Origin: Deltaproteobacteria bacterium
GTDB lineage: Bacteria > Desulfobacterota > JACPFL01
Length of the DNA: 34,546 bases
NCBI GenBank assembly: GCA_016183025.1
Contig: JACPFL010000090.1
Location: forward strand, 1 to 34,546
Reading direction: 5' to 3'
Shown here: positions 319 through 10,910 of the stretch, one piece after another
How positions within the stretch are numbered: position 1 is the stretch's first letter
Layout of the letters: every line of letters begins with the position of its first letter
Position numbers and translations under genes: made by a program
The notes under the pieces: model-generated
Databases searched by the model: none
What the model saw: the letters and a program-made list of their open reading frames with translations, nothing else
Told to the model about the DNA's origin: nothing

Positions 319-828
319 ATGAGAAAGACCACGAGGGGGATAGTTGCTGGCCTGGGGCTGGGGTTCACTGTCCTGGCGGGCCTGCCGGGCTCCGCACGGC
401 AGGTGCTGGCCCAGGTGGAGGAGGCGACGATCAAGATCCAGGGGACGATGACCTGCGTCCTCTGAGCGTACGGGATCGACAAGTCCCTACAGCGCCTGGA
501 TGGCGTTGCCAGATCGAAGACGTCCCACGAGACCCACCTGGCCCACGTCACGTTCAAGCCCGGCAAGCCCGTGGACTTCGAGGAGTTGGCCCGGGCTGTG
601 GACAAGGCCGGGTTCAAGGCTGGGGAGATCCAGATCCGGGCCACCGGCACCCTGACGATCGCGGGCGGGCACCTGGCCCTGAAGGTGGCGGGGAGTGACC
701 AGGTGATCCCCCTCGTCGAGGACGAGCAGGCGGCCAGGCTCAGAGGGGAAGCAGGCCGGCGGGGCACCCTCACCGGGCGGGCCCGCGGGAAGGCCCTGGC
801 GGTGGAGACGTTCGTCCCGAAGCCGTGA
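319..828 (+). CDS. Secreted MerP-like HMA-domain selenoprotein (CxxU)
   Basis: The 169-codon frame starts at ATG 319 behind GGGAGG (309-314) and contains TGA at 463-465, read here as selenocysteine 49. Residues 1-31 are a signal peptide (basic start, hydrophobic core, AQ at the end). Residues 35-105 are a heavy-metal-associated (MerP/CopZ) fold in which the usual MTCxxC loop reads MTC-VL-U, followed by a typical beta-alpha-beta continuation (VTFKPGKPVDFEELARAVDK). About 60 further residues form a beta-rich tail of unknown role. HMA domains bind soft metal ions through the two chalcogen residues; in the periplasm this would be a Hg/Cu scavenger handing ions to a transporter. Without readthrough neither half makes sense: the first stops inside the metal loop and the second lacks it. 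The start is clear; Sec is an inference from the Cys position. Confidence 0.85.
490..508 (+). promoter_or_regulatory. SECIS-like hairpin after UGA 463-465
   Basis: Bases 490-496 pair with 502-508 (7 bp, one GU) around the loop TGGAT. The loop starts 31 bases after the UGA and has G as its second base, matching the published loose bacterial SECIS rules (apical loop 16-37 bases after UGA, a G within the first two loop bases). Found by eye, not by a folding program. Confidence 0.5.
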
Positions 829-856
829 GGGGCGGATAAGCCGAGACGGGGGTGCC

Positions 857-1753
857 ATGCGAGAGAAGCCGGATCCGATGACGAGATGGCCCTGTCATCG
901 TCGCGTGCGAGTTGTCCAGACCTGGGTACTGGTGGGCAGCCTCGTGGTGCTCGCGGGCAGTGTGCTGGCTGCCGCCGGGCCGATGTGCCCGCTCCTGTTC
1001 CATTCGAACCGGGAGGGCTCCTATCACGTCTACCGGTTGGACCCCGATGGTTCTGTGACACGCCTGACCCAGGGCCCTGGCAGCCACATGAACCCCGCGG
1101 CCTCCCGAGATGGCCGGGTCATCGCCTACGACCGGGATGGTGATGTCTACGTAACTGACCGGGAGGGCCGGTCGCACCGGCGGCTGACCACTGACGCGAA
1201 GGCCAATGCCTGCCCGGTCCTCTCCCCTGATGGCCGCTGGATGGCCTACCAGAGCAACCGTGCCGGGCGGTTTCAGATCTACCTTCAGGACCTCCGGAGC
1301 GGGCAGGACCAGGTCTTCGTACAGAGCCGCGGCCACGACGGCTGTCCGGCGTTCGGACCGGATGGACGGCGGATCGCCTTCCTGAGTGACCGGGACGGGC
1401 AGGGGGAGATCTACGTGGTGAATCGCGACAGCCGGCAGCAGGAGCGGCTGACCGTTCACGAGGCCATGGACATGGACCCGGCCTTCTCCCCCGACGGGAC
1501 CAGGATCGTGTTCGCCTCGGACCGCGACGGGCACTTCGAGCTCTACCTCCTTGACCTCCGGACTCGGACCCTGGAGCGGCTCACGCGGGGGCCGCGCTCC
1601 AGCATCCAGCCGGCCTTCTCCCCGGATGGCCAGTGGGTGGCATTCGAACGGGACGGGGACGTCCACCTGCTGGACCTCCGGACGCGCCGAGAGGTGAACG
1701 TGACTGATGGCAAGGGGTATAGCGGGGCCCCCGTATGGCTCCCCTGTCCCTGA
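857..1753 (+). CDS. Secreted TolB-like beta-propeller (PD40 repeats)
   Basis: This is a 298-residue protein. After an N-terminal hydrophobic segment (about residues 22-42) it carries six or so repeats of the form (F/A)SPDGxxIxFxSDRDGxxExYxxD, the PD40/WD40-like repeat of TolB propellers: SPDGRWMAYQSNRAG, GPDGRRIAFLSDRDG, SPDGTRIVFASDRDG, SPDGQWVAFERDG. Only the propeller is present; the N-terminal domain of true TolB is absent and no tol/pal genes are near. It therefore is probably a periplasmic scaffold or binding protein of this metal island, not TolB itself. It follows the HMA selenoprotein by 28 bases and precedes the permease gene by 15, so it is probably co-transcribed. Confidence 0.8.
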   Translation: MREKPDPMTRWPCHRRVRVVQTWVLVGSLVVLAGSVLAAAGPMCPLLFHSNREGSYHVYRLDPDGSVTRLTQGPGSHMNPAASRDGRVIAYDRDGDVYVTDREGRSHRRLTTDAKANACPVLSPDGRWMAYQSNRAGRFQIYLQDLRSGQDQVFVQSRGHDGCPAFGPDGRRIAFLSDRDGQGEIYVVNRDSRQQERLTVHEAMDMDPAFSPDGTRIVFASDRDGHFELYLLDLRTRTLERLTRGPRSSIQPAFSPDGQWVAFERDGDVHLLDLRTRREVNVTDGKGYSGAPVWLPCP

Positions 1754-1768
1754 TCGGAGCGGTGACCC

Positions 1769-2806
1769 ATGCGCGAGTTCCTGGGCGAGACGGGGCTCTT
1801 CCTGTACGCGACCGCGAACCATGTGTTCGGGATGATGTACTGGATCTGGTTCCCCGGCCTGGTGGTGTCCGGCTACCTCTGGCTCCGGTGGCACCACGTG
1901 CTGGCCGCTGCCCTCCTGGAGCGGCAGAGGGAGAGGGAGAGCAGCCCGGCCTGGCTCACGGCGCTCCTGCTGGGGATCACGGGCTCCCCGGACCGCGGCA
2001 CCAGTCTGGACGAAGCGCGCCACCTGGTGTCGCGCGGGGCTGGGGCGCGATCAGTCCTCCTGCACCTCGTCGCCAGCCAGCAGCTAGCCCCGTACGCCCT
2101 GGCCTTCCTCGTGACGAACCTCGGGCTCGAGTTTTTCTTGGGCCAGCTCTTGGGAGCGCTCGCCATGGCGCTGGTAGCGTCAGGGCTTGTCCGGCTGGTC
2201 CCGGATGACCGCTGGGAACAGGCCCGGAAGGCGCAGGCCTGGGCCACTACGGACGAGCCCCGGCTGCTCACTGGGGGCATGCCATCCAGGCCCATGCGCG
2301 GGATCCTTCGGTACCTGGCCGGGGAGGTTCGGGTCCTGTGGAAAGGCGTCGTGGTCGGGCTCGTGCTGGCAGGGCTGATCGGCGCGGCGGGCCGGACCGA
2401 CTGGTGGCCGGACCTGGGCAAGGTGGGCGGCGGTGGGTTCTGGACGGCCCTGCTCAACGCCGTGGCCGGCGCCGCGCTGGCCCTCGTCTTCTTCGCGGCC
2501 CCCATCGGGCATCAGCTTGTCGGGACGATGCTCTGGAAGGCCTACACCCTGACGTTTCCCGGGATCGTGGCGTTCTTCCTGGCTACGCTGGCCACCCCCC
2601 GGGCCATCCGTCACTACTGCCGCATGTACGGGGCCGGTCTGGGCCTGTACCTGGGCGGCATCTTCCTTGTCTCGGCGGCCATCGGCGCGCTCTTCGTCGC
2701 GGGCCTGTTCTGGGTTGTGGGATTTGAGGTGACGCACGTGCCGCGGTTCCACGAGATCGTGAACGAGATCATGATATTCTTCTCGGTTTTCGGGAAGACG
2801 ATGTAG
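1769..2806 (+). CDS. Multi-pass membrane protein, predicted permease (ArsP/DUF318-like, tentative)
   Basis: A 345-residue polytopic protein with about eight hydrophobic segments. The first half (helices near 10-45 and 105-145) and second half (190-215, 228-260, 270-290, 295-330) are separated by a polar loop at about 150-185. The layout of two helix bundles with short re-entrant Gly/Pro-rich stretches (TFPGIVAFFLATLATP) resembles the predicted permeases of the ArsP/DUF318 group, which export organoarsenicals or metals, but no diagnostic motif is conclusive. Cys is nearly absent (one, in HYCRMYG). Its position among metal-binding secreted proteins suggests efflux of a metal or organometal. Confidence 0.6.
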   Translation: MREFLGETGLFLYATANHVFGMMYWIWFPGLVVSGYLWLRWHHVLAAALLERQRERESSPAWLTALLLGITGSPDRGTSLDEARHLVSRGAGARSVLLHLVASQQLAPYALAFLVTNLGLEFFLGQLLGALAMALVASGLVRLVPDDRWEQARKAQAWATTDEPRLLTGGMPSRPMRGILRYLAGEVRVLWKGVVVGLVLAGLIGAAGRTDWWPDLGKVGGGGFWTALLNAVAGAALALVFFAAPIGHQLVGTMLWKAYTLTFPGIVAFFLATLATPRAIRHYCRMYGAGLGLYLGGIFLVSAAIGALFVAGLFWVVGFEVTHVPRFHEIVNEIMIFFSVFGKTM

Positions 2807-2844
2807 AGAGTTCCATGCGTCATGCGAGACTCCCCGGAGGGCGG

Positions 2845-3165
2845 ATGAGGCGGAGAGTGGCGGTCGGGGTATGGGTGGTTATCCTGCTGGGGGTGCTGGT
2901 CCCGGCGCTGGGAAGCGGGGCGACCCGCCCGTTCGAGGGGGAGGGCGAGGTTGTCGCGGTGGACCTGGAGAAATCGTCGGTCACGATCAAACACGGGGAG
3001 ATCCGGGGGCTGATGAGCCCCATGACCATGGAGTTCACGGCGAAGTCCCGCGAGCTCCTGAAGGGGGTGAGGCCCGGGGACAAGGTGCGGTTCACGCTGG
3101 AGCGGTCGGGGCTGAGCGTCATCTTGACGGAGATCCTCCGCCAGGGGGAGACGGATTCGAAATAG
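2845..3165 (+). CDS. CusF/CopK-type periplasmic metal-binding protein
   Basis: After a signal peptide (about 25 residues from ATG 2845) comes a small beta-barrel domain with the CusF-like pattern: GEVVAVDLEKSSVTIKHGEI, then GLMSPMTMEF, then LLKGVRPGDKVRFTLE. In CusF the Met residues of this MxxMTM segment plus a His/Trp bind Cu(I) or Ag(I); here His (KHGEI) and the PMTM methionines are kept, so metal binding is likely. ATG 2815 is an alternative in-frame start; 2845 has the better ribosome site (GGAGG 2836-2840) and a cleaner signal peptide. It starts shortly after the permease gene stops. Confidence 0.8.
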   Translation: MRRRVAVGVWVVILLGVLVPALGSGATRPFEGEGEVVAVDLEKSSVTIKHGEIRGLMSPMTMEFTAKSRELLKGVRPGDKVRFTLERSGLSVILTEILRQGETDSK

Positions 3166-3229
3166 GGGGGTCCGCTGGTGGCCGCAGAGGCGACGGGTGC
3201 CCTGCGACCAGGGGAGGAGGCCCATGTGC

Positions 3230-3613
3230 ATGACACGAAGAAGTGGCTGGCTGCTAGTGGGGCTAGGACTGGCTTTAGTGCTAATCCTCGGCGCGGAGGG
3301 CATGGCCCAGGAACAGCAGATCTATGCCCGGGGGAACGTCACGGCGGTGCAGGTGGAAAGGTGCGGCCATAAGCCGGGTAGCTGTGAAGGAACCCTGTCG
3401 CTGAACAGCCACGGGAAGGCCATCACCGTAAAGGTGACGGGCGCGTCGGTCATCAAGATGGATGACAAGCCCATGATGCTCCCCGGGATCAAGGCCGGTG
3501 ATGAGGTGACCGTGGTCTACGTGGAGCAGGCGGACGGGAACGTCGCCAGGGTCGTGGAATACTACATGAAGCCCGGCGAGCACCGTCCTGCCGGGTCCAG
3601 TCCCCGGCATTAG
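3230..3613 (+). CDS. Secreted Cx6CEG protein of unknown function, copy 1
   Basis: ATG 3230 lies 9 bases after AGGAGG (3215-3220); ATG 3224 and GTG 3197 are longer options. A signal peptide ending near MAQE precedes a roughly 100-residue beta-rich domain. Its hallmark is a cysteine pair in CGHKPGSCEG (Cx6C followed by EG), then GKAITVKV, then PMMLPGIKAGDEVTVVYVEQ. The gene at 4365-4715 encodes a clear paralog with the same framework. I do not recognise a named family. The paired cysteines, secretion and neighbours suggest a small OB-like metal- or thiol-binding protein. Confidence 0.75.
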   Translation: MTRRSGWLLVGLGLALVLILGAEGMAQEQQIYARGNVTAVQVERCGHKPGSCEGTLSLNSHGKAITVKVTGASVIKMDDKPMMLPGIKAGDEVTVVYVEQADGNVARVVEYYMKPGEHRPAGSSPRH

Positions 3614-3643
3614 GGCATCGTGACCGGGCTTCGAGGGGCTTGC

Positions 3644-4183
3644 ATGATCCAAGGATCACGGGCCTCGAACGGTCGGACGGGCGTCCGTGTGCGGACCCGG
3701 CCGGCTGTGGCGGTGGCCACGGCGCTGCTGGTCGTGCTCGCGGGATGGTCCGCGAGCCTAGCCGGCAGCCTCGGGGAGCGCGCGCCCGCCTTCGCCCTGC
3801 CGGGGCTGGTGAACGGCAGGCTGGTGAGCCTCCAGGAGTTCCGGGGCCGGCCCGTGGTGCTGAACTTCTTCGCGGCGTGGTGCCAGCCTTGCTGGGCGGA
3901 GATGCCCGTGCTGCAGCGCGCCTACGAGCGCTACCGGGCCAGTGGAGTGGTCGTCATCGGGATCGGTGTGTTCGATGACGCCCGCTCGCTCCGGGCCATG
4001 GTCGAAAAGCTCGGGATAACCTTCCCCGTCGTCTACGACCGGGACGGGGTGGCTGCCCGGGCGTACCGGCTGTGGGGCCTGCCGTTGACACTCGGCATTG
4101 ACGCCAGAGGCACGATTCGCCGAGTACTGCCGGGCGCGCTGGATGAACAGCGGCTCGAGAAGGCGATTCAGGTTCTGCGGTAA
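3644..4183 (+). CDS. TlpA/ResA-like thioredoxin-fold protein, membrane-anchored or secreted
   Basis: About 179 residues from ATG 3644 (GTG 3620 is upstream and in frame). A hydrophobic segment at about 20-42 is a signal peptide or anchor. The rest is a complete AhpC/TSA-TlpA fold: APAFALPGLVNGRLVSLQEFRGRPVVLNFFAAWC-QPC, with the redox pair Cys80/Cys83 in WCQPC, and the cis-Pro region LWGLPLTLGIDARG. Family members reduce or rearrange disulfides outside the cytoplasm, often for haem or copper protein maturation. Here it may keep the cysteine/selenocysteine loops of the neighbouring secreted metal proteins reduced. The frame ends at TAA. Confidence 0.85.
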   Translation: MIQGSRASNGRTGVRVRTRPAVAVATALLVVLAGWSASLAGSLGERAPAFALPGLVNGRLVSLQEFRGRPVVLNFFAAWCQPCWAEMPVLQRAYERYRASGVVVIGIGVFDDARSLRAMVEKLGITFPVVYDRDGVAARAYRLWGLPLTLGIDARGTIRRVLPGALDEQRLEKAIQVLR

Positions 4184-4364
4184 GCACGTAGAGACGGGCT
4201 TCCTGGTGGGGGGCGACCATGCGAGGGCTCATGCCTGAACAGGCGGGGGGGTGACCCCACCCCGGGTGAGGAGTAGGGCCTCCCTCGGGCTTCCCGGACC
4301 GAGAACAAGACCGGGGAGGGATACGTGCTGCGCCTAGGTGCGCATAGGAAGGAGGGTCACAGAC

Positions 4365-4715
4365 ATGAGGGCAGTGATCCGTCTGCTTGCCCCGGTTGCT
4401 CTATCCCCTTTCCTCCTTTGGGGCCTCATTGTGGGTCCTTCGCTGGCCTCCGAGGAGGGGAGCTATGAGGGTCGCGTCCAGGACGTCAAAGTGATCAAGT
4501 GCGGCCTCCCGCCGGCGGAGTGTGAGGGCTCGCTGCTTCTTGACGTGGCCGGGAGACCGGTGACCATCGCCCTGAAGCTCGGGCCGAAGGAACTCGTCAG
4601 GGGCCAGGAAACGATCGGTCTGCCCATGATCCGCCCTGGCGACGTGGTCACCGTCCGATATGTGCGGCAGGGGGATGAGCTGGTGGCCCGCAGCGTTCGG
4701 GTCCATCCCCGCTAG
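4365..4715 (+). CDS. Secreted Cx6CEG protein of unknown function, copy 2
   Basis: ATG 4365 follows AAGGAGG (4349-4355) at good spacing. The 116-residue product has a signal peptide (about 1-32, ending SLASEE) and the same domain as the protein at 3230-3613: VIKCGLPPAECEGSLLLD, GRPVTIALKL, IGLPMIRPGDVVTVRYVRQ, ARSV. The two copies share Cx6CEG, the LPxIxxGDxVTVxYV stretch and the terminal ARxV, so they arose by duplication and diverged strongly. Function is unknown; a metal or oxyanion binding role is inferred from context. The 180 bases before it contain small GC hairpins (for example 4248-4263) but no gene. Confidence 0.75.
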   Translation: MRAVIRLLAPVALSPFLLWGLIVGPSLASEEGSYEGRVQDVKVIKCGLPPAECEGSLLLDVAGRPVTIALKLGPKELVRGQETIGLPMIRPGDVVTVRYVRQGDELVARSVRVHPR

Positions 4716-4807
4716 GTGAGGTGGCTGACGGGATGGGCCCCATGCAAGTCCTCCAGCACGATGCCGGTGAGATTGCCACAAGCACAAAAGAGGGGAGGGA
4801 GAAAGGC

Positions 4808-5107
4808 ATGCGCGTAAGAACAATTGCCGCTCTTGTGACGGTTCTGGGTGTCATCGGCCTCGGGGCCAGCCTCGGCCTCAGCCAGCCGATGACAGGGATG
4901 GAGCAGCAGGCTCCTGGTGGGGAGATGCCCATGGGGCCGGGTCCGGGAATGATGGGCGGGCAGATGGGCCAGATGCCGATGATGCCCATGATGCAGATGA
5001 TGAACGAGTGCGCCCGGATGATGGCACAGATGGGCGGTGGCATGGGAGGCACGGCCCCCGGGCAGACGCCTGCGCAGCCCGGGACGCCGGCACCCCGGGG
5101 GAGGTAA
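4808..5107 (+). CDS. Small secreted methionine-rich protein
   Basis: A 99-residue product from ATG 4808 behind a GAGGGAG site. Residues 1-25 are a signal peptide. The mature part is nearly all Gly, Pro, Gln and Met, with about 18 methionines and a single Cys within some 50 residues (MPMMPMMQMMNECARMMAQM). Clustered methionines of this kind bind soft monovalent metals such as Cu(I) and Ag(I) in periplasmic chaperones and in CopB/PcoE-like proteins. The middle may form an amphipathic helix with a methionine face. It is probably a metal sponge; no enzymatic fold is visible. Confidence 0.75.
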   Translation: MRVRTIAALVTVLGVIGLGASLGLSQPMTGMEQQAPGGEMPMGPGPGMMGGQMGQMPMMPMMQMMNECARMMAQMGGGMGGTAPGQTPAQPGTPAPRGR

Positions 5108-5120
5108 GGAGGGTCAGGTG

Positions 5121-5369
5121 ATGGCAGGACCAGCGGTGCGTGTGTACTCCGAGCCCGGGTGACTTTTTTCGGACCAGGCGAAGGAGTTCCTGTCGCGCCA
5201 TCAGATTGCGTTCACGGACCATGACACGGCCAGCGACCCCGCCGCGCTGGAGGAGGCGCTGCGGCTGAACCGAGGCGTCCGGGTGACGCCGGTGATCGCG
5301 GTAGGGGAGGAGGTCGTGGTCGGCTTTGACGAGCCACGGTTGCGCCGCCTGCTGGGGCTGGAGGGGTGA
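5121..5369 (+). CDS. Glutaredoxin-like selenoprotein (UxxS)
   Basis: ATG 5121 follows AAGGAGGG (5107-5114). TGA 5160-5162 is codon 14 of 83 and falls exactly where glutaredoxins have the first Cys of CPxC: VRVYSEPG-U-LFSDQAKEFL. After it the family pattern runs on undisturbed: LSRHQIAFTDHD, then the cis-Pro loop GVRVTPVIAVGEEVVVGFD, and a closing helix RLRRLLGLEG. The second Cys of the motif is Ser, giving a monothiol-type (here monoselenol) UxxS site. There is no signal peptide, so it is cytosolic. It could reduce glutathione- or metal-linked mixed disulfides in metal detoxification. It sits 27 bases before the double-UGA HMA gene. Confidence in the fold is high; Sec is inferred from position. 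Confidence 0.85.
5163..5192 (+). promoter_or_regulatory. Candidate SECIS region of the glutaredoxin gene
   Basis: Two alternative hairpins follow UGA 5160-5162. One pairs 5175-5178 with 5189-5192 (CAGG/CCTG) around a 10-base loop with G second, starting 16 bases after the UGA. The other pairs 5164-5171 with 5179-5186 (8 bp with several GU) around GACCAGG but is only 9 bases away. This is the weakest SECIS candidate in the window. Confidence 0.3.
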
Positions 5370-5395
5370 CCTCGCCGATTCCCGGATGAGGGCCC

Positions 5396-5659
5396 ATGGA
5401 ACGAGCGCAAGTCCTGCTCCGGATCACCGGCATGACCTGAGGACGCTGAGCCGCCCGGGTGCGGGGGGCTTTGGAGAAGCTCCAGGGCGTGCAGGAAGCG
5501 ACGGTGGATTGGGAGGAAGGATCGGCCCTGGTCTCCTACGATCCGGAGGGCCTGACGCTCCAGCAGCTCCAGGAGGCTGTGGAGGCCTCCTCTGACGCCG
5601 ACCATGTGTACCGGGTCGTCGGGAGCCGGCTGGCGGAACCCTGGCCGCCTCCGAGATGA
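5396..5659 (+). CDS. HMA-domain protein with two in-frame UGAs (GMTUGRU)
   Basis: From ATG 5396 the frame meets TGA at 5438-5440 and again at 5447-5449, then stays open to TGA 5657-5659 (87 residues). Both UGAs replace exactly the two cysteines of the HMA signature GMTCxxC, giving ITGMT-U-GR-U-AARVRGALEKLQGV. The rest is a full HMA domain: the helix after the loop, VQEATVDWEEGSALVSYDPEGLTLQQLQEAVEA, and a short tail. The paralog at 10563 has Cys at the first and UGA at the second position, so cysteine and UGA interchange within this locus. A diselenol metal site would bind Hg(II) or Cu(I) very tightly. No signal peptide is seen, so it is a cytosolic chaperone-like protein. Ordinary gene callers would report only the fragment after the second UGA. 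Confidence 0.85.
5468..5488 (+). promoter_or_regulatory. SECIS-like hairpin of the double-UGA HMA gene
   Basis: Bases 5468-5476 pair with 5480-5488 (9 bp, two GU) around AAG. The loop starts 27 bases after the second UGA and 36 after the first, so one element could lie in range of both. The same structure at the same spacing occurs after the UGA of the paralog (10704-10724); two GU pairs here are GC there. The underlying codons encode the same Ala-Leu-Glu, so the changes are synonymous. Confidence 0.5.
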
Positions 5660-5726
5660 GGCGGTGTGGGACCGGCCGGGACAGTATGAAGCGGTAGGGG
5701 GATACAGCGGAAGGAGGGAGGAGGGC

Positions 5727-6401
5727 ATGGGACCGAGGAAGCTCTGGTCAACCCTCGCTCTGGTTGGGATTTCCACTCTGGTCTGGCTAGCGGGGACGAT
5801 AACTGGCGCGGCGGCCGGATTCCAGCAGGCGCCGGGCTCGGGGGCGGAGGGTCGGGTGCTCGTCTATGTGACGCCCCGCTTCCTTACGGTCAATGCCACC
5901 TGCCTCCGTCAGGAGCCGTGCGAGCGGGAGGTCCGGACTGCGCTGGAGAAGACGGCGGGGATCGGCAAGATCATGGCCTACCGCCCGCAGGGGGCCATGA
6001 TGGTGGACTATGAGGGCAAGCGGATCACGCCGGAGCAGCTGACGGGGGTCGTCACCAGGGCGATGGCTGGCGAGCCGGTCCGCTGGACGCCGATCGAGGT
6101 CCGGTACACGGGCTCCCGGAAGGTCCCCAACAAGCTCGTGGCGCAGGTCAGCCCGGGGCGGGTGACCCTGGTCTCAGAACGGTTCCTCTGAATTTCCTGT
6201 GCGACGCGTGCCGTCGCATGGATCGAGAAGTTGCCGGGGATCACGAAAGTGGAGTTCTTCGGGCCTGAGCACATGATCGTGGCGGACTACGACGCGAAGA
6301 AGGTCAACGGGAAGGGCATCGCCGCCATGGGGCTGATGTCCCTGGAGATGGACCCTATCTACGCGGCCCTGCCGGAGTACACGATCGAATACGTCAAGTG
6401 A
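5727..6401 (+). CDS. Secreted tandem HMA-like selenoprotein (second domain UxxC)
   Basis: The 224-residue frame starts at ATG 5727 after GGAGGGAGGAGGG and includes TGA 6189-6191 as codon 155. Residues 1-36 are a signal peptide. Two related HMA-like domains follow. Domain 1 (about 46-120) has a modified loop, RFLTVNATC-LRQEP-C, and GIGKIMAYRPQGAMMVDYEGKRITPEQL. Domain 2 (about 145-215) repeats the pattern as RFL-U-IS-C-ATRAVAWIEKLPGITKVEFFGPEHMIVADYDAKKV. Both loops begin with RFL, so the domains are an internal duplication, and the UGA is the first metal ligand of domain 2. Translation ending at the UGA would leave a complete first domain, so a shorter product is also possible. It would act in the periplasm as a soft-metal binder. 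Confidence 0.8.
6197..6221 (+). promoter_or_regulatory. SECIS-like hairpin after UGA 6189-6191
   Basis: Bases 6197-6205 pair with 6213-6221 (9 bp, including six consecutive Watson-Crick pairs TGCGAC/GTCGCA) around the loop GCGTGCC, which begins with G. The loop starts 14 bases after the UGA, slightly closer than the usual 16-37. It is the most stable-looking hairpin of the set. Confidence 0.5.
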
Positions 6402-6444
6402 CCTGGGCCCTGGCACAGGAGCACCCAACATCGGGGAACATTCG

Positions 6445-7062
6445 ATGTCCGAGTGGGCAGAAGAGATCGAGCGCTATCTGGCGAGCTTTTCCCCGGAAGA
6501 GGTGGCGGTGAGCCGGTATGCCTTCCGCGCCATCCTCGCCGGCGCGCCCGCGACGCTGACCGAGTTGCCCGGCGCCCTCAGCCTGTCGCCCGCAGCGGTC
6601 GAGGCCGCCGTCCGCCGGCTCACCGAGCGGGGAATCATGGCGATGGCCCCCCAGCCCCAACGGATCGTGGGGGTCCGTGGGCTGTCCTCGGTCGAAACGG
6701 ACCATCGCCTCACGCTGGGAGGGCGCCAGCTCTACGCCTGGTGCGCCGTGGATGGGGTGGGGATCCCGGCCGCGCTCAGGGCCGACGCTCGGGTGGAATC
6801 CCGCTGCCACCACTGCGGGGTCCCGCTGAGCCTGGAGCTCAAGGGCGGGGCCGTCGTTGAGGCGCCGGAGGGGCTGGTGATCTGGGCCGCGGAGCGGGAT
6901 CTGAGCCGGTCTCTCCGGGCCTACACCTGACCGCTCATCAACTTCTTCTGCTCGGTCGAGCACATGCAGGCGTGGGAAGTGACTGCCCCACGGCCGGGCC
7001 GGATGCTGACCCTCGGGGGGGCCGCTGCCCTGGGCCCCCGCCTATGGGGGAGCCTTCTGTGA
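6445..7062 (+). CDS. merB: MerB-type organomercurial lyase, selenoprotein form
   Basis: Reading through TGA 6928-6930 as codon 162 gives 205 residues, close to MerB length (about 212). The N-terminal winged-helix region (residues 1-80) is followed by the MerB core: LYAWCAVD supplies the catalytic pair Cys100/Asp103 (Cys96/Asp99 in plasmid R831b MerB), SRCHHCG holds the structural Cys, and after the UGA comes PLINFFCSVEHMQAW, matching the CHVHFFAS...W segment that carries catalytic Cys159. The UGA aligns with that Cys159. MerB cleaves the C-Hg bond of organomercurials by protonolysis, giving Hg(II) for MerA. The frame ends at TGA 7060-7062. No merA or merR is in this window. The TGA truncation alone would remove an essential residue, so Sec readthrough or a pseudogene are the alternatives; the intact tail argues for readthrough. 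Confidence 0.88.
6949..6962 (+). promoter_or_regulatory. SECIS-like hairpin in merB with GGTC loop
   Basis: TGCTC (6949-6953) pairs perfectly with GAGCA (6958-6962) around the tetraloop GGTC. The loop starts 23 bases after the UGA. The E. coli fdhF SECIS has a GGUCU apical loop recognised by SelB, so loop and spacing both fit well. Confidence 0.6.
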
Positions 7063-7204
7063 GGCGGATGGGTGGCGGCTGACAAGCCCACGTGCATTTC
7101 TCGCGTGATTGGAGAGATTTTCGCCGGCTGACCTGTGAACCATTTGATCATTCCGGGAGTATTAGGAGAGTGGGGCAAGGAGCATGAGGCGGAGGGGCAC
7201 CCCG

Positions 7205-8611
7205 ATGGCAAAGGACGACGCGCCAGTTCTCAGAGGAGGGTTCGGCCCTCGCCAGGAGGGCGAAGCTCTCCTGGTCTGTCTCCAGCGGAAGGAGGGCCTG
7301 GAGGCCGTCCTGGACAGCATCACGAGGGACGGACTCATCACGGTCGACGAGACCGGGCAGGTCGCCGTCTTCAACCGGGCGGCGGAGCAGCTCACCGGGC
7401 TGACCCGGACAGAGGCTTCGGGGTTGACGGCCGAGGAGCTGTTCACCCGGATCCTGGGGTCGGGTTCGCTCATCAAGCAGGCGCTGGCCGAAGGCCGGTA
7501 TGGGCCTGATGAGGAGCAGGAAGTGCTCTCCCGAGACGGGAGCCGTCGCCGGGTGGCTGTCACGGCGAGCCCGATCCTAGAGGACACGGGGCAGCGGGCG
7601 GGGATCATGGTGGTCCTGCGGGACATCCAGGATCTCCACGAGCTGCGGGAGCAGCTCATCGACCGCTTTCGGTTCCACCACCTCATCGGGAAGAGCCGTC
7701 CCATGCAGGCGGTCTACCAGTTGATCCGGCAGGTGGCCGGCAGCGGGGTCCGAGGCCCGTTCGTTCCGGTGAACTGCGCGGCTTTGCCGGAGGGGCTGTT
7801 GGAGAGCGAGCTGTTCGGACATGTCCGGGGGGCCTTCACCGGAGCCCACCAGGACCGCACCGGTCGCTTCGACGCGGCGAACGGGGGAACCATCTTTCTG
7901 GACGAGATCGGCGAGATGAGCCCCCTCATCCAGGTGAAGCTGCTGCGGGTCCTGCAGGGGCACGAGTTCGAGCGGGTGGGGGAGAGCAAGCCCCGGCGGG
8001 TGGATGTCCGGGTCCTGGCGGCGACGAACCGGAACCTGTGGGAGCTGGTGCAGGCGGGGAAGTTCCGGGACGACCTGTACTACCGCCTGAACGTCGTGAC
8101 GATCCACCTCCCGCCCCTGCGCGAGCGGCGGGACGACATTCCCCTGCTGCTGGACCACTTCATCGGAAAATTCAGCCGGCAGCTCGGCAAGGAGGTCCGG
8201 TCGGTCAGCCGTCCCGCGCTGCGGGCGCTGATGGGCTACGACTGGCCGGGGAACGTCCGGGAGCTGGCCAACGTGATCGAGCGGGCGGTCCTGCTCACAG
8301 CGGGGCGCTCCATCGACATCGAGGATCTGGCGCTGGGTCGGGACCGGGGGAGGCCGCGCGCGGGCGGGCCCGCCGCTGGGCCCATGATGCCAACCGAGAG
8401 CGGAGCGGGGGGCCGTCCCGCTCCGGAAACCGGGCTCGCCCTCAAGGACCTTGAGCAGGCCCACATCGCTTGGGTCCTGGCCCATACAGAGGGGCGGCGC
8501 AACCAGGCCGCAGCACTCCTCGGCATCAGCCTGCGCAGCCTCTACCGGAAGCTCCGTGAGTACGGCTTGAGCGGGGGCCCTGCGGGAGCGGGACCGGGAG
8601 AGGCAGCCTGA
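7205..8611 (+). CDS. Sigma54-dependent activator (PAS-AAA-Fis) lacking the Walker A loop
   Basis: A 468-residue regulator from ATG 7205, placed 8 bases after GGAGGGG; ATG 7184 is an alternative. Residues 30-150 are a PAS sensor ([29 protein letters not shown]). The sigma54 AAA+ domain follows with [23 protein letters not shown], the sigma54-contact loop GAFTGA (209-214), Walker [13 protein letters not shown] (228-238), sensor [12 protein letters not shown], arginine-finger region [12 protein letters not shown] and sensor [18 protein letters not shown]. The C-terminus is a Fis-type HTH ([23 protein letters not shown]). Between QVAGS (176-180) and VRGPF the usual 25 or so residues containing GESGTGKE are missing without loss of frame. 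ATP binding should be crippled. It lies between the merB-type and merE-type genes and near a sigma54 promoter (9070), so it is probably the local regulator. Confidence 0.9.
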
Positions 8612-9123
8612 CGGCGACTGGCTGGAAGCGCCACATACTGCTAGCCACGGCGGCTGTGACCTGTCCCTGTCACATCCCGGTGTTGGCGGCGATCCTCGGG
8701 GGGACGGCCCTGGGTGGCTTTCTAGCGGAGCACTGGGCTCTGGCCGTGGGGGCGGCCAGCTTCCTGTTCGCGTTCAGCCTCGGAGCCTGGCTCAGCAGTC
8801 GGCCTCGCGCCGCAGCTTCGGGGTGCGGGGGCGGCGGCCTCGATCCTCAATCTCTTCCTAGTCAGGGGTTGGCGTGGTCAGGGGTTGGCGTGCGAGGACA
8901 GCATGAAGGGACTGCAGATCTGGCACGGAGCCCCTGCCAGCTCTGGCGGTTAGCCGTGTCAGATCTGGCGGTAGCTTTCCCGCGAGCGTGGGCCCGGGCA
9001 GTGTTTGGCCAAGAGCCGTTTCGCGGCGGGGAGTTACATGGCCTCATTCATCCGGCGGGCGGACCTGCCGGGCATACCCCTTGCGTAAGCAGCTCAGAGC
9101 AAAGCCGAGGATGTCCTGGCTAG
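8608..9123 (+). CDS. merE: MerE-like mercury transporter with odd start and long tail
   Basis: The core [55 protein letters not shown] matches the small MerE family (TGYLWG..VLTCPCHLPILA...GAFIGEHW), a two-helix inner-membrane protein that moves Hg(II) and methylmercury through its CPC motif. No ATG exists: the only standard start in frame is GTG 8656, which would cut the first helix just before CPC. CTG 8608, overlapping the regulator's TGA as CTGA and preceded by GGAGAGG (8597-8603), fits the expected N-terminus better. After about residue 70 similarity ends and the frame continues roughly 100 residues through low-complexity sequence, crossing a 16-base tandem duplication (8861-8892). That tail is probably not real family sequence; the true stop may have been lost by the duplication. 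Confidence 0.7.
8861..8892 (+). repeat. Tandem duplication of a 16-bp unit
   Basis: GTCAGGGGTTGGCGTG occurs twice back to back with no mismatch. Sixteen is not a multiple of three, so the duplication changes the frame of anything translated across it. With a single copy the merE-like frame would end some 25 codons further on, at TAG 8951-8953. Confidence 0.9.
8919..8986 (+). repeat. Three degenerate 22-23 bp repeats, candidate activator sites
   Basis: TCTGGC recurs at 8919, 8942 and 8964, followed each time by a short spacer and AGC (TCTGGCGGTTAGC, TCTGGCGGTAGC). The period is 23 then 22 bp, about two helical turns. The first unit contains a perfect dyad CTGGCA/TGCCAG (8920-8925 and 8935-8940); the second an imperfect TCTGGC/GTCAGA. 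They lie about 110-180 bp upstream of the transcription start expected from the sigma54 promoter at 9070, the usual place for enhancer sites of NtrC-type activators. Confidence 0.5.
9070..9085 (+). promoter_or_regulatory. Sigma54 (-24/-12) promoter
   Basis: GGGCATACCCCTTGCG matches the consensus TGGCAY-N5-TTGC at every conserved base except the first T. The GG (9071-9072) and GC (9083-9084) dinucleotides are exactly 10 bases apart. Transcription should start near 9096 and serve the DUF302, membrane protein and HMA selenoprotein genes. A sigma54 activator gene ends less than 500 bases upstream. Confidence 0.6.
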
Positions 9124-9232
9124 CCGAAGGAGGATGAGCGGGGCACTGCCCGACGGGGCTGGGGCCGACTGATGGTGAGGGACGTCAGCAGGTCCTGCCC
9201 GGGAAAGTCCCTCAAGACAAGGAGGGTGTTCC

Positions 9233-9688
9233 ATGAAGAAGAAGGTGCTGCTGGTCGTGGGACTGCTGCTCGCCCTGGGCGCGAGCGCCTGGGCGCAGAC
9301 CCTGGAGCGCGTGGACCGGGTGTCGAACAGCGGCTTTGACAAGACGGTGCGCCAGCTCGAGGTGGCGATCAAAGGGAAGGGCATGATGGTCGTGGCGGTG
9401 ATCGACCATCAGAACATGATGCGCATGGTGGGGATGAACGTCCGGGGAAGCAAGACCCTGGAGTTCGGCAAAGCCGAGATGGGGAAGATGATCCTGGGGA
9501 GCCATCCGGAGGCGGGGCTGGAGAACCCTGCGAAGCTCTACGTCTTTGAGCGGGGCGACGGAAAGACGGTGGTGAGCTACTACAAGCCTTCGGGCGGGTT
9601 TGCCACCTACAGGGCAGATAGCCTGCGCCAAGTCGGCCAGATGATGGACCAGGTGCTGGCGGAGATCGCGGCCGAAGGGACCCGCTAG
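9233..9688 (+). CDS. Secreted DUF302-domain protein
   Basis: ATG 9233 follows AAGGAGG at ideal spacing. A classic signal peptide (MKKKVLLVVGLLLALGASAWAQ) is followed by a DUF302 domain: SGFDKTVRQLEVAIKGKGMMVVAVIDH, SKTLEFGKAEMGKMILGSHPEAGLENPAKLYVFERGDGKTVVSYYKPSGGF. DUF302 proteins are small dimeric periplasmic or cytosolic proteins of unknown biochemical role; the conserved asparagine/lysine (ENPAKLYVFE) is kept. It is the first gene after the sigma54 promoter. The mature protein carries many methionines (MMVVA, NMMRMVGMN), which may bind soft metals. Confidence 0.85.
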   Translation: MKKKVLLVVGLLLALGASAWAQTLERVDRVSNSGFDKTVRQLEVAIKGKGMMVVAVIDHQNMMRMVGMNVRGSKTLEFGKAEMGKMILGSHPEAGLENPAKLYVFERGDGKTVVSYYKPSGGFATYRADSLRQVGQMMDQVLAEIAAEGTR

Positions 9689-9708
9689 CCAGGGTTGGAG
9701 CACGAACG

Positions 9709-10554
9709 ATGCTCATCACGTGGATCGATCTCCTCTTTGTGGTCGCCGGTCTGGCAGCCATGGCTGTGGGGCTCAGGCGGCGGTGGGCAGTGCCGCCGCC
9801 TGAGCCAGCGCCGCCGTCATCAGCCGGAGAGCTTGTCCTGACGGGCCTCGCCCTGGTGCCGGCGGCGGTCGGCCCCAACGTCCTCGTTGTGGCCCTGACC
9901 CCAGGGATGCCGGGCATGCCGATCCTCACCCGCTGGGTGCTCCTGCCATCGATCCTTCTCCTGCTCGTAGTGTGGGGAGCGGCGTTCGCCCGGGGGTACG
10001 CGCGGCTACAGAACCGGATCTGGACCGGCCTCTGGATCGGGGCGGCGAGCACGGCGGCGCTGGACGTGTTTCGTCTCACCAGCTTCAGCCTGGGACTCCT
10101 ACCGGGGAATCTGCCCCGGATGTTCGGGGTCCTGATCCTCGACACCATGGCCGGCGGCCCCACGCCGTTCTCGGACTTCGCAGGCTCCCTGTACCACTAC
10201 TGGGTCAGCGCCTGCTTCGGCCTGACCTATGCCCTGATCTGCGGGCGCACCCGCTGGTGGGGGGGCCTGATCTGGGGCCTGCTCATCGAGGTGGGGATGA
10301 TGACCACCCCGCCGATGGTCATCGCCATGGACACGGGGTACTTCGGCCTGAAGCTGGGCCAGGGGATCTTCAACGGAGTGTTCCTGGGAAGCCTCGTCCC
10401 CCATGTGTCGTACGGCATTGCCCTCGGCCTGCTCCTGGAACGGTACGTGCGGCATACGGGGTCGGTCTTCGGGCTAGCCGCGCGGCTGCTGCGTCCGGCC
10501 GTCGCGCAGGGTGCGCCGGGGCCGCTGGATTCGCCGGCGCTCCGGCATCGGTAG
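9709..10554 (+). CDS. Polytopic membrane protein of unknown family
   Basis: A 281-residue protein with about seven hydrophobic segments (about residues 5-22, 42-68, 78-98, 105-130, 140-170, 183-205, 222-246). It has no signal peptide other than helix 1, no Cys-rich motif in the membrane and no ATPase domain. Conserved-looking features are DTMAGGPTPFSDFAGSLYHYW and GYFGLKLGQGIFNGVFLGSLVPHVSYG. I do not recognise the family. It is 20 bases after the DUF302 gene and 8 bases before the HMA selenoprotein gene, so the three form an operon, and it may be a metal transporter fed by that chaperone. Confidence 0.75.
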   Translation: MLITWIDLLFVVAGLAAMAVGLRRRWAVPPPEPAPPSSAGELVLTGLALVPAAVGPNVLVVALTPGMPGMPILTRWVLLPSILLLLVVWGAAFARGYARLQNRIWTGLWIGAASTAALDVFRLTSFSLGLLPGNLPRMFGVLILDTMAGGPTPFSDFAGSLYHYWVSACFGLTYALICGRTRWWGGLIWGLLIEVGMMTTPPMVIAMDTGYFGLKLGQGIFNGVFLGSLVPHVSYGIALGLLLERYVRHTGSVFGLAARLLRPAVAQGAPGPLDSPALRHR

Positions 10555-10562
10555 CGTCATCC

Positions 10563-10910
10563 ATGGTGAAGTGGCGCAACCTGTGGCATGACCCTGGGAT
10601 CTTCCCGGACCCGGCGGGGCAAGCCCCAACCGGTGGGAACCAGCAGGTCCGCCTGAAGGTCACGGGGATGCTGTGTGGCCTGTGAGCCCGCCGGGTGCGG
10701 GGGGCCCTGGAGGGGCTCCCGGGCGTGGTCAGGGCTGAGGTAAGCCTGGCGAGCGATGCCGCGGAGGTCGTCTGCGCTCGCCCCTTCGCGTGGGAACAGG
10801 TTGAGTCGGCCGTTCGGGCGACGGTCATCCTACCGGGTCTCCGGCGCCTGCTCGATCGGCTCGGGCGGGCCTGGGGCCTGGGGCGGTCGGGCGCACGGGG
10901 CCCCGGCTGA
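10563..10910 (+). CDS. HMA-domain selenoprotein (GMLCGLU)
   Basis: From ATG 10563 the frame contains TGA 10683-10685 as codon 41 and ends at TGA 10908-10910 (115 residues). VRLKVTGMLC-GL-U-ARRVRGALEGLPGVVRAEVSLASDAAEVVC is an HMA domain whose second metal ligand is the UGA. It aligns directly with the double-UGA protein at 5396 (U-AARVRGALEKLQGV): first ligand Cys here, UGA there; second ligand UGA in both. About 28 extra residues precede the domain and a helix rich in Leu/Arg follows. With no signal peptide it should act on the cytosolic side, perhaps delivering metal to or from the membrane protein encoded 8 bases upstream. Confidence 0.83.
10704..10724 (+). promoter_or_regulatory. SECIS-like hairpin after UGA 10683-10685
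   Basis: Bases 10704-10712 pair with 10716-10724 (one mismatch at 10708/10720) around GGG. The loop starts 27 bases after the UGA, exactly as in the paralog at 5468-5488. Confidence 0.5.

Follow-up and report, generated by a model that had tools for sequence, protein, structure and literature searches.

A predicted UxxU selenoprotein of the HMA family encoded near a putative selenocysteine-containing MerB

Introduction

This locus raises the question whether two in-frame UGA codons lying nine bases apart, exactly where the loop of a metal-binding HMA domain would carry its two cysteines, are read as selenocysteine (Sec), by which signal both could be recoded and which metal such a site might bind. 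The window (i.e. the whole stretch of DNA analysed here, 34,546 nucleotides) is part of a fragmented genome assembly of an uncultured bacterium with 3.68 Mb in 308 contigs that is 90% complete. The gene in focus and its two UGA codons are:

5396..5659, + strand, predicted UxxU HMA-domain metal-binding selenoprotein, 87 aa (PF00403, NF041115, AlphaFold2, Foldseek)
5438..5440, + strand, UGA1, predicted Sec15, first ligand of GMTUGRU (aligned to Cys of CxxC in HMA relatives)
5447..5449, + strand, UGA2, predicted Sec18, second ligand of GMTUGRU (aligned to Cys of CxxC in HMA relatives)

There is hardly any doubt in our view that 5396–5659 encodes a genuine selenoprotein with a UxxU motif, and Sec would be incorporated at UGA1 as well as at UGA2.

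Reading frame, domain and fold

The frame starts with ATG at 5396, contains TGA at 5438–5440 and 5447–5449 and ends with the stop codon at 5657–5659. With UGA read as Sec its product is MERAQVLLRITGMT-U-GR-U-AARVRGALEKLQGVQEATVDWEEGSALVSYDPEGLTLQQLQEAVEASSDADHVYRVVGSRLAEPWPPPR. The Pfam profile PF00403 (HMA) spans both UGAs (residues 8–64) with 59.7 bits at a gathering cut-off of 24.8 and the metal loop reads GMTUxxU, thus by score and by loop the product is a member of the HMA family. The original prediction, according to which UGAs occupy both cysteine positions of GMTCxxC in an otherwise intact HMA domain, was thereby confirmed together with its coordinates. A signal peptide is not apparent in this product. 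The Cys version was modelled with AlphaFold2 without alignment (mean pLDDT 87.5); its topology is strand-helix-strand-strand-helix-strand, and both U positions lie where helix 1 begins. Foldseek matches for this model comprise MerP (1osd, 1afi), CopZ (6ff2, 2qif) and copper ATPase domains, and phmmer led from the sequence to the same three groups. The protein is probably a stand-alone cytosolic HMA metallochaperone of the MerP/CopZ type.

Selenocysteine machinery and placement of UGA codons

Absence of selA/B/C/D had been named beforehand as an argument against Sec, but profile searches revealed selA (620 bits) and selB (364.8 bits), and selD and tRNA-Sec (80.2 bits, gathering score 47) are also found in this genome. 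The selD gene contains an in-frame UGA of its own at HGAGUACK. A general change of the code with UGA read as Trp was ruled out by the presence of tRNA-Sec and selB and by Cys at the respective positions in relatives.

Genome-wide, seven TGAs occur in six HMA domains and all seven, including the two in focus, fall on metal-Cys positions. The motifs concerned are UGRU (5396–5659), CVLU and CGLU (both in the window), CSGU (contig C281), CDLU (C10) and CELU (C302). If TGAs were placed at random the probability of this outcome would be ~(2/62)^7, hence their placement in HMA domains is not due to chance. As is typical of selenoproteins, UGA is aligned with Cys in homologs and is itself found in more than one homolog. 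Cysteine at the UGA positions of ordinary relatives had been regarded as a possible objection; it favours Sec and does not refute it.

As UGC and UGU are only one base away from UGA, both codons could also be nonsense changes in a pseudogene or sequencing errors. This reading is extremely improbable. Both UGAs are located exactly at the metal ligands, and likewise placed UGAs are present in five more HMA domains and at the C159 position of MerB in the same genome. The part following the UGAs has a paralogous copy that is 78% identical, with dN 0.12 and dS 0.55 (dN/dS ~0.22), which means that this part is under selection at the protein level. Finally, independent UxxU genes recur in a second genome (see below), which contradicts error or decay. 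Ligand-only UGAs, the paralog pair and this recurrence together leave little room for such an origin, and it was dropped because the UGAs recur at ligand positions only.

The paralogous copy mentioned above (C281:1132–1317) is truncated at its N-terminus and lacks both UGAs. The region C281 1–3540 contains the end of a metal P-type ATPase (with C-terminal HMA), this UGA-less truncated copy, an HMA gene, a CcdA-like gene and the CSGU selenoprotein.

Relatives and recurrence of the UxxU motif

In a search through order, class and phylum (395 phylum genomes, E<=1e-12), in which the class was represented by the window genome alone, no close ortholog was detected besides the window genome. A scan of genome contigs matched one ordinary CxxC protein of the CopA type in a Planctomycetota MAG. 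Among the matches listed for the 395 phylum genomes one other genome (G026) carries two TGAs within an HMA domain (EGMIUPAUPVVVKRALEGLDGV), and the gene after it is likewise UxxU and HMA-like (GGFVUMGUPDAIVSALEGVEGV). The gene order there (contig C122, locus L087, 338–2066) is MerR, thioredoxin-like, MerT-like, UxxU HMA and UxxU HMA-like; MerR reaches 146 bits, slightly below its cut-off, and the match of the MerT-like gene is weak. The comparison of homologs foreseen in the original prediction thus revealed recurrence of UxxU in two HMA-type genes of G026, in addition to the CxxU paralogs within the window genome.

Candidate SECIS hairpins

Two hairpins downstream of the UGAs have to be considered:

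5465..5483, + strand, candidate bSECIS with 7-bp stem GGGGCUU/AAGCUCC and loop UGGAG at 5472–5476 (comparative register and bSECIS rules)
5448..5471, + strand, alternative hairpin with loop GGUG at 5458–5461, 17 nt after UGA1, −17.4 kcal/mol, overlapping 5465–5483

Published rules for bSECIS comprise a loop of 3–9 nt with G in the first two positions, a stem of 4–16 bp, a distance of 16–37 nt from the UGA and an energy of <= −7.5 kcal/mol (PMC13188914). All of them are satisfied by hairpin 5465–5483, which is 31 nt away from UGA1 and 22 nt from UGA2, both within the published range of 16–37 nt; its energy is −7.8 kcal/mol, compared to −8.7 kcal/mol for the minimum-energy fold. A single hairpin in reach of both UGAs had been anticipated at 5468–5488; its existence is supported by the conserved register described below, while its position is near to, but not identical with, the anticipated one.

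All seven Sec HMA genes tested show a perfect stem of 6–8 bp with a loop of 5–6 nt, (U)GGAN, at conserved Leu-Glu/Asp codons. Stem sequences vary among these genes with the pairing being kept, e.g., UU/AA in 5465–5483 and CC/GG in the gene with the UGA at 10683. In the 22-nt register a stem of >=6 bp is present in 5/5 Sec genes vs 1/44 Cys HMA domains (Fisher p 3e-6), and comparison of the shared register with codon-resampled (synonymous) versions gave a combined p of 1.4e-5. This register was chosen by visual inspection of the first four genes and was fixed before the G026 sequence was examined; the first UxxU gene of G026 then showed the same register and the second one has the loop at the same place. 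In this GC-rich genome the energy of the hairpin after the UGA in any single gene is unexceptional if compared to codon-resampled sequence. Since energy alone is not significant, the register and the Cys controls were taken as evidence for SECIS. The hairpin of the paralog C281:1132–1317 contains a mismatch, which as one case is merely suggestive.

The CGLU and CDLU paralogs likewise have their hairpin 22 nt after the UGA (CSGU and both genes of G026 differ from this by at most one nt), and in the CVLU and CELU paralogs the spacing is 31 nt. As both spacings are seen elsewhere in the same genome, one hairpin can serve both UGAs, and we consider it fairly likely that 5465–5483 is the common SECIS of UGA1 and UGA2. 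Folding of the mRNA, as it had been suggested, placed this candidate hairpin in range of both codons and also disclosed the stronger overlapping hairpin 5448–5471 that could serve UGA1 alone. The same diselenol protein might thus be made with a separate SECIS for each UGA, in that 5448–5471 acts on UGA1, is melted by the ribosome and gives way to 5465–5483 for UGA2. Both structures fit the bSECIS rules and, as they overlap, only one can form at a time, which a sequential switch requires. Nevertheless, this arrangement is rather unlikely: no equivalent of 5448–5471 is found among the best hairpins of the two UxxU genes of G026, where UGA1 has its best candidate in the shared hairpin at a distance of 32 nt, and the 31-nt spacing is already used by the single-Sec relatives with CVLU and CELU.

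With three genes in two genomes a comparative case is now available for one SECIS serving UGAs nine bases apart, in which processive bacterial Sec insertion can be tested. A scan for promoters and terminators gave nothing beyond chance.

Gene neighbourhood and other predicted selenoproteins

The following genes of the window are relevant for the interpretation of the UxxU protein:

319..828, + strand, HMA-domain selenoprotein with CVLU (UGA 463–465) and N-terminal hydrophobic leader (PF00403 40.3 bits)
1769..2806, + strand, ArsP_1-type permease (PF03773, 53.2 bits)
2815–3165, CusF (near 5396–5659)
5121..5369, + strand, UXX-star glutaredoxin-like selenoprotein, UGA 5160–5162 in GULFS (NF041212 65.3 bits, 0.7 bit under the cut-off of 66; PF00462)
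5727..6401, + strand, protein of secreted type containing two HMA-like repeats, UGA 6189–6191 (weak MerP/HMA matches on the repeats)
6445..7062, + strand, MerB-family organomercurial lyase, UGA 6928–6930 at the position of catalytic Cys159 (PF03243, phmmer against MerB structures)
10563..10889, + strand, HMA-domain selenoprotein with CGLU (UGA 10683–10685; PF00403 34.7 bits)

The UXX-star glutaredoxin (5121–5369), the UxxU HMA gene, the HMA-repeat protein (5727–6401) and MerB (6445–7062) form a run on the + strand with short gaps. In the HMA-repeat protein the first repeat carries CLRQEPC and the second UISC, and GC3 is high on both sides of its UGA. The two CxxU proteins of the window have partners elsewhere in the genome (CVLU with CELU in C302, CGLU with CDLU in C10). 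The hairpin of 319–828 has the loop UGGAU 31 nt after its UGA, and that of 10563–10889 has the loop UGGAG in the same register as in 5396–5659. At least six genes within 10.6 kb would be truncated or missed by standard callers.

Concerning MerB, reading through the UGA at 6928 raises the PF03243 score from 61.1 to 91.3 bits and extends the matched part of the profile from 1–74 to 1–124 of 126 positions. In phmmer alignments with solved MerB structures this UGA (6928–6930) is found on the Cys159 column, and the equivalents of Cys96 and Asp99 are kept (WCAVD). Cys159 is a catalytic residue of MerB. A hairpin with GGUC loop follows 23 nt after the UGA but, with −5.4 kcal/mol, it is weaker than the bSECIS rule demands. 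The protein scores 94.7 against true MerB, in contrast with 54.8 against SaoL (NF040728) where the cut-off is 140. The predicted Sec at position 159 of this MerB is possibly more unusual than the UxxU HMA protein itself; in a limited set of papers no report was found of a true-MerB-like enzyme with Sec at Cys159 in a cluster of six selenoproteins.

Relationship with known families

The best NCBIfam match of the product of 5396–5659 is NF041115 (UxxU_metal_bind) with 65.4 bits, which is under the curated cut-off of 95. This family is listed as predicted metal-binding protein or putative mercuric reductase with UxxU and two Sec (PMC13188914). Like the protein described here it has an HMA-type domain with Sec in place of both motif cysteines, i.e. 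the UxxU feature is shared. In contrast, those phylum genomes that score above the cut-off have no stop codon in the domain. Our protein, though not filed as a member because of the cut-off, would work like one. The claim that a diselenol HMA site is remarkable has therefore to be qualified, since a predicted family with this feature is already named (NF041115, PMC13188914) and the novelty is reduced.

With MerP (TIGR02052) the protein has in common the fold, the position of the GMTCxxC loop and the neighbourhood of mercury genes. It is no member of that family as it reaches 42.1 bits at a cut-off of 92.55, has no leader peptide and carries Sec instead of Cys. Two reads of MerP selenoproteins are known from the GOS survey (PMC2398784). 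CopZ (NF033795, NF047957) is likewise a stand-alone cytosolic HMA domain and was matched with 58.0 and 51.8 bits, but these scores are under the cut-offs of 91 and 85 and both Cys are replaced by Sec in our protein. NF045683 (MerT_CopZ_Se, MerT/CopZ fusion-like heavy metal transport selenoprotein) is also a Sec family with a CopZ-like HMA part; it is, however, a fusion with MerT of which the HMA part alone is matched (32.3 bits, cut-off 375).

The Sec-assisted organometallic (SAO) system with the MerB-like SaoL (NF040728) resembles the window cluster in that several selenoproteins surround a MerB-like organometal lyase. In contrast with SAO, MerB of the window is below the SaoL cut-off and the other Sec genes match HMA and glutaredoxin families and not sao; the genes scanned at 319–10889 matched families other than saoB, saoC, saoP, saoT and saoX. 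Thus Sec MerP reads, MerT/CopZ Sec fusions, UXX-star glutaredoxins, the MerB-like SaoL and the UxxU family are known already. Less expected is the company, namely a true-MerB-like enzyme with Sec159 within a cluster of six selenoproteins.

Proposed function

Taken as a whole, a diselenolate chaperone of the MerP/CopZ type with shared SECIS, soft-metal cargo and subsequent handover is the best explanation, and we regard it as probable. Sec-tRNA delivered by SelB would decode UGA1 and then UGA2, most likely both with the help of hairpin 5465–5483. The resulting diselenolate pair in the HMA loop could bind a soft thiophilic ion. The most probable candidate is Hg(II) set free by the Sec-containing MerB nearby, with Cu(I) as the alternative. 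By ligand exchange this ion might be handed over to a reductase or an exporter, and the neighbouring UXX-star glutaredoxin may keep the Sec pair reduced (diselenide reduction). Identity of the metal and of the partners is suggested by the gene context. The presence of Sec-MerB in this run of genes, an HMA plus MerA-like locus in the genome and the UXX-star glutaredoxin all point to mercury, which we slightly favour as the main cargo.

Mercury is not indicated by the sequence of the protein itself, since CopZ models outscore MerP with 58.0 vs 42.1 bits. A CopZ-like Cu(I) chaperone, in which the diselenolate raises the affinity for Cu(I) and MerB is an incidental neighbour, would also agree with CusF (2815–3165) nearby, with the ArsP-type permease and CusF being encoded upstream in the window, and with the metal P-type ATPase gene near the C281 paralog. 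We consider copper only tentatively, as MerB lies one gene downstream on the same strand with short gaps and the UxxU pair of G026 adjoins MerR and a MerT-like gene. The Sec pair could further be a redox centre (diselenide/selenol) as in UXX-star and thioredoxin-like selenoproteins and not a metal site at all. Oxidoreductases represent most selenoproteins of known function (PMC2398784) and a glutaredoxin-like selenoprotein adjoins the UxxU gene. Such a role is improbable nonetheless because fold and motif are those of HMA and not of thioredoxin, with the entire GMTCxxC metal loop retained.

If the diselenolate chaperone indeed carries mercury, the window might represent a mercury detoxification rebuilt with selenium: Hg(II) from MerB with Sec159 would be taken over by the chaperone and passed from selenol to selenol among further Sec HMA proteins and the UXX-star glutaredoxin, with a single SECIS serving two UGAs three codons apart. 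This extended scenario is speculative and, in its entirety, rather doubtful. Mercury is bound far more tightly by selenium than by sulfur. This tight binding leads to the question how a chaperone with two selenols releases its metal, for which the cluster offers a natural set of proteins (UxxU, CxxU and Sec-MerB).

Two further observations concern metal genes of this genome. In contig C244 (locus L054) from ~1530 to the end an HMA gene precedes a gene for a MerA-like reductase. The GTCVNIGC site of this reductase is normal, and its frame shifts near the contig end, likely due to an assembly frameshift. In the window, 4721–5107 encodes a small Met/Gly-rich protein (MMGGQMGQMPMMPMMQMM...) beside the metal genes that is without family match and is perhaps a Met-rich copper binder.
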